IMG/VR virus record: IMGVR_UViG_3300033153_003076
Span: 1 to 28,997 of that record
Source of the DNA: a virus
Length of the DNA stretch: 28,997 nucleotides
Direction: 5' to 3' (one strand)
Shown here: one piece after another, positions 1,444-28,997 of the stretch
How positions within the stretch are numbered: the stretch's first letter is position 1
Layout: the number at the start of each line of letters is the position of its first letter
Made by a program: the position numbers and the translations under genes
The notes under the pieces: generated by a model
Database searches by the model: none
Told to the model about the DNA's origin: nothing
What the model saw: only the letters and a program-made list of their open reading frames with translations

Positions 1444-3660
1444 ATGAAAGCCGACATAGTAAAGCGTGAAGAAGAACTGCAAGGGCTTTATGAGCAACGT
1501 AGAGACATATACACTAAATCACAAGACCTTATAAAAGATAGAACAAACACGCAGATACTAGAAGAAAGTGGAGATGCAAAAGAAGCACTTTATGATATTG
1601 CAGCTTCAAGTGCAGGAAGAGGAAATAAATTCTCAAATATTGAGGGCAGGACTGATTCACTTTACAATAAATTTAGTGCAAGTATGACAGATTTAAAAGT
1701 AGCATTAAGAACAACTCATGCAGGACTTAGACAAAACACAGAGTTAGCACATGAGATTCTAAGATATTTAAAAGATGGTAAGGTTAAAAATCAAGCACTA
1801 CACGCAGAAGCTAAAAAGTTGGGTGACCAATGGACTAAAGTTGCTGATTCAGTTAAAAATACTAGAAACAAAGCAGGAGCACAGATAGGAAAGCTTGAAG
1901 ATTGGATTGTGCCACAGTCACACGATAGAGGTAAGATTCTAAAAGGTGGTTATAAGAAGTGGAAGAAAACAATCATCTCAAAGCTTGATGTCAAAAGAAT
2001 AGAAGCTGAACAAGGTACAGACATTGATACTGTTTTAGTCTCAGCTTATAAAAATATCACTTCTCCGGATGTTGAAAAAGGCATCAAAGGGATGGGAAGC
2101 AAACTTACAAAGCGTGGCGAAGAGTCAAGAGTGTTACATTTTAACACAGGTGACGATATTATTAACTATAATAACGAATTTGGAAATCCCGATATTTTCT
2201 CAACTATGGATAATCACGTTAGACAGCAATCAAATGAAATCTCAATGATGCAGATTCTAGGTAGCAATCCTCAAAATCAATGGGATAAACTCAAAGAAAT
2301 AGCAAGAGCACAAGGGATGGGGGATGTTGCAGAGAAGAAACTTGATGCACTATTCAGAGTTTCAAGCGGTCAAGTTGATGGTGATAGTGTAGTGGATAAT
2401 CTTGATAACTTTTTCTTACAGGCAGGTAGTACATACAGAGGTATACAAATCGCATCAAAGTTAGGAAGTGCAACCATATCTTCTTTAGCAGATTTAGGAA
2501 GCATTATACTAGGTGCAGGGTATCGTGATTTAAGTTCAATTAAAATAATTGGGAGAGGCTTAGATACTATGATGCAAGAAGCACTAGGTAGTGGAGTATC
2601 AGCAAATACAAAACTAGCAAGCAGACTTGGAATCGTAAGTGAGTTTGCATCAGCATCACTAGCTAATAGTAGATTCGCAGAGAATGTTGGTACAGGATTC
2701 GCACAAAAGGCATCAGAGACAGTCATTAGAGCATCAGGACTTGGAGCATATACTAATTCACTAAGGACAGCGTTTGGATTAGAGCTAGCAGGTAATCTTG
2801 CAGATAATCTTGGAAAGAAGCTTGATGATGTGCCATTCAATGATATGCTAAGAGAGTATGGAATAGATGATGCAATGTGGAGCAAGATTAGCAAAACACC
2901 GAAAAAGAATATTAAAAATGCAGAGTTTTTTGATGTTACTGAATTATACAAGATTGATGAAGATTTAGGCTATAAAGTTTCAGAGATGATAACTAATGAG
3001 ATGAACGCATTTGTAATAATGCCAGGGAATCGCACAAGAGCCTGGACTACATGGGGAGCGAAGAAAGGAACACTTCTAGGCGAGACAGCTAGAAATATGA
3101 CTCTCTTTAAATCATTCCCTATTTCAATCGTTATGATGCACACAAACAGATGGGCTATGATGGGCACACAAGGCAAAGTAGCATATGCAGGTGCAGCGAT
3201 AGGAACAAATCTTATCCTAGGCACAATGACTTTATGGGCTTACGACATAGCAACAGGAAAGACACCACGCTCAGTTGATAGAAAAGCAATGATAGGTGAG
3301 TCACTTGCTAAGTCAGGTGGACTTGGAATCTTTGGTGACTTCTTTATAGGGTTAACAGATAGTAGATACGGACAAAGCTTTAGTGATATGATTTTGGGTG
3401 TACCTGCTTCAACGATAAGCGATATTACTAAATCAGCACAAGATTTGATGCACAAAGATGCAGATGATGCAGTAGGTAATATTTATAAAAGAGCAAAGAA
3501 TTATATTCCAGGTCAGAATCTTTGGTATACAAGGGCATTAATTGAAAGGTCGATAGGTGACTTTATGGGTGAAGCGATTGATCCAAATCACAAGAAGAAG
3601 TTACGCAGACAAGAAAAAGCAATGAGAATTAGAGACCAAAAGTTTCTATTCGATAATTAG
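1444..3660 (+). CDS. large internal virion protein (probable DNA-ejection protein), separated from its original start
   Basis: This 738-residue frame is in fact open from about 1190, so the ATG at 1444 is only the first start after the frameshift and has no good ribosome-binding site. The N-terminal ~130 residues are Lys/Glu-rich coiled coil. The middle is Ala/Gly/Ser-rich. The C-terminal part has hydrophobic segments around the alanine/glycine run encoded near 3180-3250, and ends with a very basic helix. The motif MPGNRTRAWTTWG followed by FKSFP, and a terminal NLWYTRALIERS block, resemble the C-termini of large podovirus internal virion proteins, which form the inner core or extend the ejection channel. 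The assignment rests on motif memory and gene order, so the family is not certain. Confidence 0.7.
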   Translation: MKADIVKREEELQGLYEQRRDIYTKSQDLIKDRTNTQILEESGDAKEALYDIAASSAGRGNKFSNIEGRTDSLYNKFSASMTDLKVALRTTHAGLRQNTELAHEILRYLKDGKVKNQALHAEAKKLGDQWTKVADSVKNTRNKAGAQIGKLEDWIVPQSHDRGKILKGGYKKWKKTIISKLDVKRIEAEQGTDIDTVLVSAYKNITSPDVEKGIKGMGSKLTKRGEESRVLHFNTGDDIINYNNEFGNPDIFSTMDNHVRQQSNEISMMQILGSNPQNQWDKLKEIARAQGMGDVAEKKLDALFRVSSGQVDGDSVVDNLDNFFLQAGSTYRGIQIASKLGSATISSLADLGSIILGAGYRDLSSIKIIGRGLDTMMQEALGSGVSANTKLASRLGIVSEFASASLANSRFAENVGTGFAQKASETVIRASGLGAYTNSLRTAFGLELAGNLADNLGKKLDDVPFNDMLREYGIDDAMWSKISKTPKKNIKNAEFFDVTELYKIDEDLGYKVSEMITNEMNAFVIMPGNRTRAWTTWGAKKGTLLGETARNMTLFKSFPISIVMMHTNRWAMMGTQGKVAYAGAAIGTNLILGTMTLWAYDIATGKTPRSVDRKAMIGESLAKSGGLGIFGDFFIGLTDSRYGQSFSDMILGVPASTISDITKSAQDLMHKDADDAVGNIYKRAKNYIPGQNLWYTRALIERSIGDFMGEAIDPNHKKKLRRQEKAMRIRDQKFLFDN

Positions 3661-15556: not shown

Positions 15557-16234
15557 ATGACTGATTTGATACAAATCACACAAGCAAACATAGACGGTAC
15601 ACCAACTAATGCAGTAGATGCCAGAGAACTTCATGAAACACTTGGAGTAAAAAAAGCATTTACGACATGGATTAAAACTAATCTTGACTCAATAGGTGCA
15701 GAAGAACACAAAGATTATATGTACCTTAAGAATTCCCTAGAGGGAAGTGGATACAAAAAAGTGTATATAATAACAGCAGATATTGCAAAGCATATAGCGA
15801 TGATGAGTAAACTACAAAAAGGCAAAGAAGTTCGTGATTATTTCATTGAAGCAGAAAAACAATCCACGCAAGCCCTAATGTCACCAAACCAAATCACAGA
15901 AGCTTTAGCACTAACAGCTCAGAGTTTAACGCTCATAGATACAAGATTAGATTTTATTCACGAAAGAACAAATAAGCTTGAAGATTATATAGAAGAAGAT
16001 TTAAAATCACGACCTGTTTCATTCGTGCAACAGAGAGCCTTACAAGACGTTAAAAACGCAAAAGTGTATCAACTCTCACCAACAGACGAGAAGATACAAA
16101 AGAAGCTACACATGAAAGTATGGAGTGTATTTAAAAAGAACTTTCACTTACCGAGATATAACGAACTCCCAGCGGTTAAGTTCGATGAAGCTATCTGGTT
16201 TTTAAATAATCTTGAAATGAATGATATGCTATAA
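15557..16234 (+). CDS. AntA-domain antirepressor with ORF6C C-terminal domain
   Basis: The 225-residue product has an AntA/AntB-type N-terminal domain (residues ~18-105): ARELHETLGVKKAFTTWIKT, YKKVYIITADIAKHIAMMSK, then GKEVRDYFIEAEKQ. The C-terminal ~110 residues match the ORF6C pattern seen in Gram-positive and Gram-negative antirepressors (SPNQITEAL ... FHLPRYNELPAVKFDEAIWF). Such proteins bind and inactivate phage repressors or alter host regulation, favouring lytic growth. No cognate repressor is visible in the window. It has its own promoter and an AAAGG site. Confidence 0.85.
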   Translation: MTDLIQITQANIDGTPTNAVDARELHETLGVKKAFTTWIKTNLDSIGAEEHKDYMYLKNSLEGSGYKKVYIITADIAKHIAMMSKLQKGKEVRDYFIEAEKQSTQALMSPNQITEALALTAQSLTLIDTRLDFIHERTNKLEDYIEEDLKSRPVSFVQQRALQDVKNAKVYQLSPTDEKIQKKLHMKVWSVFKKNFHLPRYNELPAVKFDEAIWFLNNLEMNDML

Positions 16235-17089: not shown

Positions 17090-17618
17090 ATTAGTAAAAT
17101 CAACACTAAGTAGTTTAAAGATTGATAACAACCCATTTAATCAGCAAATCATAACTGATAAAATTCAGCACATAAGAGACGAACAACTACAAGATTTTTA
17201 CGGAAGATTGTTTGACGAGTCACACAGATATCTAAACGGATTAGACAGAGTCGCAAAAGTAGCCGAACAATTCAAGCCACAAGTGCAAGATAACCCAAAC
17301 GAAGCAAAAGCCAAAGAATTAATCCAATGGTGCGAAACTGCAAACGCAACTGTATTTGACAACGCTAAGAAAAGCGGAAGAACTTTTGACGATGAAATCA
17401 AAGGTACTAAGTTTACGATGCTAAGCGATACAGATTTATACGTCTTGAATCAAATTAAGCCACATTCTAGCCACAAACTATTGATAGGCAACATAAGATG
17501 CTTCCAAGACAGTCAAGTGCAATTACAAGCGTTTGTGGATGCTTTGAAGTTTGCACCATCAGATGCTATTCAAATAGCCAACCCACTAAATAAATTACAG
17601 ATAAAGGGGATAAGATGA
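17070..17618 (+). CDS. protein of unknown function, replication operon
   Basis: ATG at 17070 follows AAGAGGAG; an earlier in-frame ATG at 17031 lies deeper in the previous gene and lacks a site. The 182-residue product is mostly helical with no metal-binding or ATP-binding motif. Position between the DUF6291 protein and DNA-modification genes suggests a replication partner, but nothing in the sequence shows it. Its TGA overlaps the next ATG (ATGA). Confidence 0.6.
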   Translation: MYNLRTELVKSTLSSLKIDNNPFNQQIITDKIQHIRDEQLQDFYGRLFDESHRYLNGLDRVAKVAEQFKPQVQDNPNEAKAKELIQWCETANATVFDNAKKSGRTFDDEIKGTKFTMLSDTDLYVLNQIKPHSSHKLLIGNIRCFQDSQVQLQAFVDALKFAPSDAIQIANPLNKLQIKGIR

Positions 17619-17854
17619 AAAGAGAAGAAATGTTTGAAAAAATTAGAATGGGTGAAGTAGTAAATGGATTTTCACAATTATGGTTAGTTGATTTAATCAG
17701 AGAACATTATGACACATTAGAGTATCAGACGTGTAAAAACTGCAAATATTGGGTAAAGGCAAGTAACCCATCATTAATGAAATGTTCTGGAAGTAACGGG
17801 TGTGAAATCGTAGGAGGAGCATTTTATTGTTCAAATTGGGAGAAAAAAAGATGA
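17615..17854 (+). CDS. small Cys4 (zinc-ribbon-like) protein
   Basis: The 79-residue product ends with a cysteine cluster: CKNCKYWVKASNPSLMKCSG, then GCEIVGGAFYCSNWEKK. A similar C-x2-CKY...C...FCCNKWE pattern recurs in the gene at 21440 and, more loosely, at 22267. Starts by ATGA overlap with the previous gene and ends by ATGA overlap with the next. Probably binds zinc; target unknown. Confidence 0.65.
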   Translation: MKREEMFEKIRMGEVVNGFSQLWLVDLIREHYDTLEYQTCKNCKYWVKASNPSLMKCSGSNGCEIVGGAFYCSNWEKKR

Positions 17855-21298: not shown

Positions 21299-21447
21299 CT
21301 AAAAAACAACTACTTGACGAAAACATAAAACGACGCAAAGAAAACACAGAACTCAGAGCAACAATCAAAGACTATGAGGACAGATTCAAAGAGGCAAAAG
21401 CTGTTCTTGATGCGAAACTTAGAGAGATAGGAGGGAGTGATGACTAG
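21295..21447 (+). CDS. 50-residue coiled-coil protein
   Basis: The start at 21295 overlaps the previous TGA (ATGA), whereas an earlier ATG at 21235 would run through the membrane-peptide gene in another frame. The product is one charged helix (MTKKQLLDENIKRRKENTEL and on), likely oligomeric. Function unknown. Confidence 0.5.
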   Translation: MTKKQLLDENIKRRKENTELRATIKDYEDRFKEAKAVLDAKLREIGGSDD

Positions 21448-21778
21448 GGAAGAAGCGAAAGAAGAGATAGGGTGGAATAGGTTTAATGACACAACGGATG
21501 ATGATTTGGAGTTAATAGACAAAATCTATGGTGATTTTGAAAAAGAAAAATCGGAGTTAGCAGAAAAGCTATTAGAGTTATCAACTAAATATAGTGACAA
21601 AGTAGATGAAGTTATAGAGTTGAAGTCAAGGACTTGTGAGAGTTGTAAGTATAATACATATCAATCAGAGTACAAGCATAATTGTGACCATTATGATGTT
21701 TTTGATTTTTATGAGGGCGATTATTTAATTCCTTATGACTTCTGTTGCAACAAATGGGAAGCTAAAGATGCTAAGTAA
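21440..21778 (+). CDS. acidic protein with C-terminal Cys4 zinc-ribbon-like motif
   Basis: ATG at 21440 behind AGGAGGGAG; a GTG at 21437 is an equal alternative. The ~112-residue product has an acidic helical N-terminus and a C-terminal cysteine set: CESCKYNTYQSEYKHNCDHY, then FCCNKWEAKD. This parallels CKNCKYW...FYCSNWEKK at 17615, so the two share a domain. Probably zinc-binding; partner unknown. Confidence 0.6.
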   Translation: MTREEAKEEIGWNRFNDTTDDDLELIDKIYGDFEKEKSELAEKLLELSTKYSDKVDEVIELKSRTCESCKYNTYQSEYKHNCDHYDVFDFYEGDYLIPYDFCCNKWEAKDAK

Positions 21779-27739: not shown

Positions 27740-27805
27740 ATGAGCGAAGAAACATCAAACCCTAGTGATAATTCGCAGGGAACAGAAGAAACACCAACAA
27801 CATAA
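27740..27805 (+). pseudogene. 5' piece of the putative scaffold gene, ended by an in-frame TAA
   Basis: ATG at 27740 with CATAAGGACACTTTG upstream. The 21 codons (MSEETSNPSDNSQGTEETPT and a final T) are the acidic start typical of scaffolding proteins. The TAA at 27803-27805 is followed in the same frame by 48 bases of open coding (ALEDGYKSLQ and on) that run straight into the 27875 frame. The full gene would span 27740-28384, 214 residues if the stop were a sense codon such as CAA, GAA or AAA. Confidence 0.7.
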
Positions 27806-27874
27806 GCTTTAGAAGATGGGTACAAATCTTTACAGACAACATTTAGTCAAAAGACAGCTGAGTACTCAAAAGCA

Positions 27875-28384
27875 ATGGCAGGACAAGTTGGAGCACCAGA
27901 AGCATATGAGTTCAATGAGGGCTTAAATATGTCAGATGGTATGCAAAACTACGCTAAAGAGAATAACTACTCTAATGATGCACTCAATAGTTGGGCAGAA
28001 GCATACCAAGCAGATGCTGAGTCAACGAGAGAAGCATATCGTGGTGAGCAGATAGAGTTGCTTGGTAAAGATGCAGATGCAAGACTCACTAACGTAGAAG
28101 ATTGGGCTAAAGCTAATCTAGGTGATGATTATACGGACACACTAAACGCAATGGTTAGTACAGCCAAAGGTGTTGAGGTGTTTGAAAAGATTATGAAAAT
28201 GAACAGCGGTGTAGCACCTGCACAAGTTGAACAGCCTAAACAGATGTTAGACAGAGACACAGTGAGAAGTATGCAGTTTGCTAAAGACGAATATGGAAAC
28301 CGTAAAATGTCTAGTGATCCACAGTATCGTGCTAAAGTAGAGGGCATGATGAACGAGTTTATAGCGAGTGGAGGAAAGCTTTAG
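27875..28384 (+). CDS. putative scaffolding protein, 3' part after the nonsense codon
   Basis: The 169-residue frame from ATG 27875 lacks a ribosome-binding site; it is the continuation of the gene starting at 27740. The product is acidic and almost entirely helical (PEAYEFNEGLNMSDGMQNYA, NSWAEAYQADAESTREAYRG). It ends with YRAKVEGMMNEFIASGGKL, close to the ends of podovirus scaffold proteins. Scaffolds template capsid assembly and leave before packaging. Position between portal and capsid supports this. If the stop is real, only a truncated form could be made by reinitiation. Confidence 0.75.
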   Translation: MAGQVGAPEAYEFNEGLNMSDGMQNYAKENNYSNDALNSWAEAYQADAESTREAYRGEQIELLGKDADARLTNVEDWAKANLGDDYTDTLNAMVSTAKGVEVFEKIMKMNSGVAPAQVEQPKQMLDRDTVRSMQFAKDEYGNRKMSSDPQYRAKVEGMMNEFIASGGKL

Positions 28385-28392
28385 GCTTCCTC
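28371..28392. terminator. bidirectional terminator hairpin between scaffold and minus-strand gene
   Basis: GAGGAA and TTCCTC, plus an inner GC/GC pair and a bulged A, form a hairpin around a TTTAG loop, spanning the scaffold stop. It is followed on the plus strand by TCTATAATTT and lies two bases past the end of the minus-strand gene, so it could end both transcripts. Confidence 0.55.
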
Positions 28393-28393
28393 T

Positions 28394-28591
28394 CTATAAT
28401 TTAAATGTGCAAGGCACTATGTGTTTTAACATCTTTCTCATTTTACGCTTCTTTTTTCTTTTGTCAATCTTAAACATATTAACTTTTTTATAGGCTTCAC
28501 ACACTTCTTTACTAAATATTAAAAGTGCAGAAGCTGTAAGACTTTCTTTATTTACAAATCTATGGTTTCTTATTATATATTTCTTGCTCAT
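28394..28591 (-). CDS. minus-strand moron-like gene, 65-residue very basic protein
   Basis: Read on the minus strand, the ATG (28591-28589) has AAAAGGATATAAG directly upstream, the same ribosome site used by the plus-strand early genes. A consensus promoter lies 97-130 bases upstream. The product (MSKKYIIRNHRFVNKESLTA and on) ends with a Lys/Arg-rich stretch (KIDKRKKKRKMRKMLKH). It has no membrane segment and one late Cys. Its own promoter, opposite direction and shared terminator within the head operon are the definition of a moron. It may be a nucleic-acid-binding regulator expressed in a lysogen. No family is recognised. Confidence 0.7.
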   Translation of the reverse strand: MSKKYIIRNHRFVNKESLTASALLIFSKEVCEAYKKVNMFKIDKRKKKRKMRKMLKHIVPCTFKL

Positions 28592-28694
28592 CTTATATCC
28601 TTTTATATAAACTCTAGCCTAATAACTAGTGCAGTATCTAATCTGAAAGAAAAAAGAAATGCAAAAGAAAAAAGAGTGTTCGTTCATAGTTAAG

Positions 28695-28722
28695 ATTATA
28701 TCACACCCTTAAAATGTGTCAA
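28695..28722 (-). promoter_or_regulatory. consensus sigma70 promoter of the minus-strand gene
   Basis: On the minus strand, TTGACA (28722-28717), a 16-base spacer ending in TGTGA, then TATAAT (28700-28695). Both hexamers are perfect and a TG extension is present. The start should be near 28688, leaving a ~97-base leader. Confidence 0.85.
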
Positions 28723-28733
28723 GTTTTTCATTC

Positions 28734-28794
28734 ATATAAAAATATATCAATGTCATATTAATTAATATTAGACTTAATATAAAAATATATCAAT
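28734..28794. repeat. 18-bp direct repeats with a palindrome between, divergent promoter region
   Basis: ATATAAAAATATATCAAT occurs at 28734-28751 and 28777-28794. A perfect 14-bp palindrome ATATTAATTAATAT (28755-28768) lies between. One copy abuts the minus-strand -35, the other lies just before the plus-strand -10 (28803). They could be operator sites or UP-elements. Confidence 0.6.
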
Positions 28795-28802
28795 TTCTAT
28801 GA

Positions 28803-28808
28803 TATAAT
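28803..28808 (+). promoter_or_regulatory. extended -10 promoter of the capsid transcript
   Basis: TATGATATAATGG holds TATAAT at 28803-28808 with an upstream TG. The start should be near 28815, giving a ~157-base leader before the capsid ATG. A GGTGTT/AACACC inverted repeat (28809-28831) follows at the very start of the RNA. Confidence 0.6.
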
Positions 28809-28814
28809 GGTGTT

Positions 28815-28971
28815 AAGATATTTAAAACACCTACACAGAAAGATACCTCCTTACAGAGCCTTGACGTTTAGAAGTTTATAGCCGAAAGCTATGACCTCCT
28901 GGATTGTCAGGAGCTACCCTAAACTTGAAGCATAATTATCACAAAATTCTTATTACAAAAGGAGAGATATT
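28815..28971 (+). promoter_or_regulatory. long structured 5' leader of the capsid transcript
   Basis: AAGTTTA (28872-28878)/TAAACTT (28920-28926) encloses two hairpins, TAGC-CGAAA-GCTA (28879-28891) and CTCCTG-(6)-CAGGAG (28896-28913), a three-way-junction layout. CTCCTT at 28847-28852 could pair with the capsid ribosome site AAGGAG (28959-28964). A 14-codon frame (28891-28935) lies inside but has no ribosome site. No known riboswitch class matches by eye. Confidence 0.5.
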
Positions 28972-28997
28972 ATGTCTCAAGACTTAACAAGCGTTCA
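28972..28997 (+). CDS. start of probable major capsid protein gene, truncated by window edge
   Basis: ATG with AAAAGGAGAGATATT upstream, a strong ribosome site; only MSQDLTSV and part of a ninth codon are visible. Podovirus gene order (portal, scaffold, capsid) makes the major capsid protein the likely product. The dedicated promoter and long leader fit a highly expressed gene. Too short for any sequence-based identification. Confidence 0.55.

Follow-up and report, generated by a model that had tools for sequence, protein, structure and literature searches.

A candidate accessory gene in a variable scaffold-capsid slot of apparently lytic podoviruses, and the probable RNA leader beside it

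Structured or autoregulated mRNA leaders are well known in phages, as exemplified by the pseudoknot leader of T4 gene 32, the autoregulation of the P22 scaffold and the operator of MS2 coat. Temperate phages and their satellites also carry exchange slots, in which small cargo genes are swapped fast at a fixed position between conserved genes and which are rich in anti-phage systems. Among the moron and prophage accessory loci described so far are rexAB, bstA and the ST64B locus, antisense to lytic genes (PMC7067206). In this study, we analysed a 28,997-base virus fragment (hereafter the window), which is assigned to a podovirus by profile matches to a portal protein (PF12236), Terminase_3, SSB, an AntA antirepressor and a cytosine methylase, and which carries a small minus-strand gene, ORF65, between its scaffold and capsid genes. 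Like the prophage accessory loci (PMC7067206), ORF65 has its own promoter, runs opposite to the lytic genes, is low in GC, is inserted between genes that adjoin each other in relatives and is not conserved throughout the group. Unlike those loci, it belongs to a phage group without sign of integration, its terminator is only a candidate hairpin, and some cargo genes of the slot have relatives among the group's own non-structural genes. As in temperate phages and satellites, the slot is fixed and its small cargo is rapidly swapped, whereas ten of its cargo proteins gave nothing better than a chance-level E of 0.028 against the PADLOC defence models, and the slot adjoins a capsid promoter and an RNA leader. 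This leader resembles the T4, P22 and MS2 systems in being a structured 5' leader (here pseudoknotted) before a dosage-sensitive assembly gene, but no sequence or Rfam relationship to them was found.

ORF65 is probably an accessory, moron-type gene that is read early by host RNA polymerase in a hypervariable slot, and the slot is probably tolerated through a restart of transcription at the capsid gene. Taken alone, ORF65 is of modest weight; the capsid leader is the greater novelty, and it is the slot together with the leader that deserves specialist attention.

ORF65 and its transcription signals

ORF65 comprises 65 codons and is the lone minus-strand ORF between the scaffold gene (27740-28384) and the capsid gene (from 28972); all other large, plausible ORFs of the window lie on the plus strand. 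In the nearest relative, a 34,380-base contig (L002), a homolog with 60% identity, also of 65 codons, occupies the same place and strand (2771-2968, minus). The features on this side of the junction are as follows.

27740..28384 (+): scaffold gene, which borders the slot on the left; in-frame TAA at 27803-27805
about 28367..28395 (no strand assigned): hairpin that spans the scaffold stop where the two genes converge, without a T-run; candidate terminator, from folding
28385..28799 (no strand assigned): variable slot for accessory genes, unoccupied in some relatives and with different cargo in others, from junction comparison
28394..28591 (-): ORF65, encoding a small, very basic protein, from the ORF and its L002 homolog
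28592..28688 (-): U-rich 5' leader of ORF65, about 97 nt from the predicted start site, from sequence
28597..28602 (-): ribosome-binding site AAGGAT of ORF65, from sequence
28695..28722 (-): sigma-70 type promoter of ORF65, TTGACA-16-TATAAT with TG extension, 12/12 matches

The promoter consists of TTGACA (28722-28717), a 16-bp spacer and TGa-TATAAT (28700-28695), and is the sole 12/12 site of the window. Dinucleotide-shuffled windows contain 0.065 such sites on average, and 6% of them contain at least one. The promoter is notable, though chance alone is not impossible; as far as sequence can tell, it is convincing because it is placed and oriented ahead of an ORF that is under selection (see below). 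The product is computed to be 7.9 kDa in size, with a pI of 10.5 and a net charge of about +15.6. ORF65 has a GC content of 26%, lower than the window (35%) and the scaffold gene (41%), and only 2.6% of 198-nt slices of the window are as low.

These results bear out what the first-pass annotation had described, namely a 65-residue basic protein encoded on the minus strand amid plus-strand genes, preceded by an AAGGAT ribosome site, a leader of about 97 bases and a TG-extended consensus promoter. The annotation had also proposed a hairpin terminator shared with the convergent scaffold gene, and here only the hairpin held up. It folds with -9.5 kcal/mol on the minus strand (z -2.1) and -11.5 kcal/mol on the plus strand (z -1.65); no U-run adjoins it on either strand, a terminator scan of the window did not return it, and as an intrinsic terminator it is not convincing on these grounds.

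In the scaffold gene of the window, the in-frame TAA at 27803-27805 comes after 21 codons, exactly where the Y-M/L-D/N-G-K-Y/F-x-S-V/I-S stretch of the relatives is missing. This may be a deletion, an assembly error or the sign of a downstream start, which are indistinguishable here.

The variable slot in relatives

The annotation had suggested a comparison of scaffold-capsid junctions in related phages. We fetched 63 capsid loci and measured the distance from scaffold stop to capsid start, which yielded 55 distinct junctions in two classes: empty junctions of 123-291 nt (28) and filled junctions of 382-1524 nt (27). All filled junctions but two carry their cargo on the minus strand (25 of 27); the two belong to the distant relatives L008 and L065 and contain plus-strand genes. 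Occupancy is not clustered on the capsid tree, with 15 changes against 15.7 in shuffles, and at least 10 changes are forced by well-supported branches. Such scattering of filled and empty junctions fits the prediction that a moron-type cassette is gained, lost and exchanged. In one pair of relatives, L054 and L055, the capsids are nearly identical, the leaders strongly different, and one junction is filled while the other is empty, a contrast that suggests recombination at the leader.

The cargo is diverse, with two recurring families: a 47-residue protein (nine loci) and a family sharing the motif 'MLELIQKIK' (eight loci). The 47-residue protein had no match in Pfam or PHROGs. Its structure model (pLDDT 89) was tested as a beta-alpha-alpha ribbon-helix-helix (RHH) monomer of the ArtA, NikR and MazE type, and the best PDB match was ArtA-DNA, with a TM score of 0.88 but an E of only 0.14; thus the predicted fold looks like that of RHH repressors at this level of similarity. 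Several cargo proteins are homologous to plus-strand non-structural genes of the phages themselves (17615-17848 and 21440-21769 in the window), and this homology speaks for a role in the lytic cycle. What began as a single odd gene is thus a mapped hotspot of small-gene exchange in apparently lytic phages, and its cargo, nearly always directed away from the capsid gene, supplies candidates for genes of host takeover or regulation.

The capsid promoter and its leader RNA

Downstream of the slot, the capsid gene is preceded by a promoter element and a leader that are both conserved among relatives.

28800..28808 (+): extended -10 of the capsid promoter, TGaTATAAT; score of 6 or more in 37 of 40 leaders (7.9 expected)
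28840..28923 (+): capsid-leader RNA, conserved and very probably structured, from covariation, folding and model search
28847-28849/28856-28858 (+): leader helix P1, from covariation
28862-28866/28905-28909 (+): leader pseudoknot P2, from a partner-swap test
28876-28882/28888-28894 (+): leader helix P3, from covariation
28896-28901/28908-28913 (+): leader helix P4, from covariation
28972..28997 (+): first bases of the major capsid gene, whose L002 counterpart matches PF19821; Shine-Dalgarno sequence AGGAG at 28960-28964

In nearly all of the 40 relatives, the extended -10 is located 20-36 nt before the core of the leader. The folding stability of the leader exceeds that of shuffled sequences (z -3.0 and -3.4). 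When 31 leaders were aligned plainly with MAFFT, 96.4% of the cells in P1, P3 and P4 were paired; double changes numbered 65 (16.4 in shuffles), and the pairing collapsed when the partners were slid by one column. A model built from this alignment found 42 loci, each with one strong match and all directly before a capsid gene; in the resulting alignment, which is fitted to the model, 96.6% of cells are paired and double changes number 124 against 35.3. The pseudoknot P2 joins the strand after P1 to the loop of P4, with a mean score of 12.96 against 9.02 (sd 0.35) when partners are swapped. In several sequences P2 overlaps the last two pairs of P4, so the two helices may alternate. Taken together, these data make it very probable that the capsid leader is a genuine structured RNA, and it may regulate capsid synthesis.

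A motif scan of viral contigs, blind to the capsid, pointed mostly to two kinds of genes among the matches listed that were non-coding and followed by a long ORF. The first kind, among these listed matches, is PF19821 capsids of very different phages, confirmed for sampled members; the second is scaffold-like genes, where the second half of the motif is absent. The motif before the scaffold-like genes may be unrelated to the capsid leader: AGATACCTC..GAGCCT occurs about 48 nt before such genes (MAANFIQDEEL...) in other phages as well, including L093, L102, L105, L140, L161 and similar contigs.

No Rfam family exceeded its gathering threshold in the window, in 10 relatives or in 18 distant loci; when the junction was searched with E values up to 5 allowed, the top match was to sroE, at chance level and elsewhere. 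Named isolates MEP301, CKB-S2, ZCVPP1 and Dunaliella SI2 gave no match with the leader model; for HTVC010P, HTVC203P and ct3Et533 inspection was by eye only. A description of the leader was not found in the open literature, a scope outside which preprints and most subscription journals fall, and the leader is possibly undescribed so far. It seems reasonably likely that it represents an undescribed, widespread class of pseudoknotted mRNA leaders that governs the production of PF19821-type capsids, with free capsid or scaffold protein as the possible signal sensed, and that the antisense slot evolved because the leader and its own promoter insulate capsid expression. The leader RNA would then offer a testable answer to how capsid dosage is set in these phages, and, occurring as it does ahead of capsid genes in distant phages, it points to a general element of control that is missing from current RNA libraries.

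Two further elements were considered and not adopted. On visual inspection the leader seems to be enclosed by a closing helix (AAUAU/AUAUU and variants), which did not, however, exceed the partner-swap control (12.86 against 12.57, sd 0.32). A role of the P1 loop as an anti-Shine-Dalgarno sequence has no excess in the window's own group, where 943 of 1000 controls score as high. Separately, in the capsid leaders of the distant loci L104, L138, L167 and L208 the P1 loop shows a striking complementarity of 9-12 nt to the ribosome site of the capsid gene (control p about 0.01), as would be expected of an anti-Shine-Dalgarno switch.

Origin and role of ORF65

In the mechanism that we favour, the host-type sigma-70 promoter on the minus strand would let host RNA polymerase read ORF65 separately from the structural genes of the plus strand, and probably as soon as infection begins; both the early timing and the use of the host polymerase are what we infer. 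The capsid gene would restart transcription just downstream of the slot from its own promoter and structured leader, and because of this restart the slot would tolerate insertions. Cargo that points away from the capsid gene would not cut off capsid synthesis.

The first-pass annotation had read ORF65 as a moron expressed in lysogens. The architecture of a moron is indeed present, in that ORF65 is a real gene with its own promoter, opposite orientation and low GC, in a slot where cargo is swapped, but the lysogenic part found no backing. Were the phage temperate, ORF65 could be expressed from the prophage to alter the host, for example by phage exclusion. The own promoter, the orientation antisense to lytic genes, the low GC and the variable slot are as expected for such a locus (PMC7067206), and a temperate lifestyle is conceivable because an AntA-type (AntA/ORF6C) antirepressor gene is present at 15557-16234. 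In opposition to this, 20 records (the window, itself a fragment, and relatives, about ten of which have 34-36 kb and appear near complete) contain no match to the tyrosine integrase family PF00589 and nothing over the family cut-off for the repressor domain PF01381 (HTH_3), with matches below it in 2 of 20; serine recombinase PF00239 gave no match over its cut-off and one below it among 17 records. Furthermore, two pattern-limited scans of bacterial genomes returned no prophage relative, and ORF65 itself matched none of the PADLOC defence models. By these scans the group looks lytic, and lysogenic conversion is an unlikely explanation for ORF65. Its relative in L002 matched only Cmr1 in PADLOC, at a chance-level E of 0.028.

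Alternatively, the ORF65 product might bind DNA or RNA of the junction and tune either the ORF65 promoter or the promoter and leader of the capsid gene. The RHH-like gene recurs in the slot of nine relatives, in some of them beside closely spaced divergent promoters; ORF65 is strongly basic, and its homolog in L002 stands in tandem behind an RHH gene. But the half of the relatives without cargo keep the capsid promoter and leader, which means that cargo is not needed for capsid control, and ORF65 shows neither the sequence nor the fold of an RHH protein. Regulation of head expression by ORF65 is rather improbable.

No usable match to ORF65 was obtained in Pfam, PHROGs, NCBIfam or PDB, and a Pfam DUF562 hit (E 0.03-0.04) was under the family cut-off and disregarded. 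The structure model is weak (pLDDT 70), with a long basic helix predicted at moderate confidence, and a fold search with it returned no match. In the mechanism favoured here, the product, with this predicted helix and its very basic charge, may bind nucleic acid or a host machine.

It could further be argued that the minus-strand transcript, and not a peptide, lowers scaffold or capsid expression, as ORF65 converges with the scaffold gene without a clear terminator and its transcripts could enter the scaffold antisense. This is very unlikely given the purifying selection seen at the codon level, and the cargo differs wholly among relatives whose scaffold and capsid are unchanged.

The window and L002, the two sequences available for ORF65, differ at codon positions 1, 2 and 3 in 13, 16 and 27 cases, with dN 0.27 and dS 0.97. 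When the same substitutions are placed randomly, 29.4 residues are expected to be kept against 39 observed (p about 2e-4), and 88% of random-substitution simulations bring a stop, whereas the actual frame has none. The reading frame, whose conservation the annotation had left to be checked, is therefore kept, and because it is kept at 60% identity with this dN and dS, ORF65 is, on comparative grounds, a real protein-coding gene under purifying selection. The scaffold gene is under far tighter constraint (dN 0.02 between the same two phages); ORF65 evolves fast, yet as a protein by the same comparison. Homologs beyond L002 were not found in viral contigs, named phages and phage genomes, or 47 related records. 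A chance ORF in an AT-rich gap, to which the short length and the 6% of shuffled windows with a 12/12 promoter somewhere would lend themselves, is extremely improbable in view of the dN/dS, the absence of stops, the codon-position pattern and the conserved length of exactly 65 codons.

Some minor observations concern the surroundings of ORF65. A 14-nt perfect inverted repeat (28450-28463/28662-28675) links its U-rich leader with its own lysine-rich coding stretch, which may be chance in low-complexity sequence. In L002, the minus-strand region upstream of the ORF65 copy (2971-3220) holds the RHH-like gene (3074-3220) and a 32-residue peptide (about 2971-3069), which is predicted to be a membrane peptide and has a weak, TciB-like PHROG match (E 0.02).
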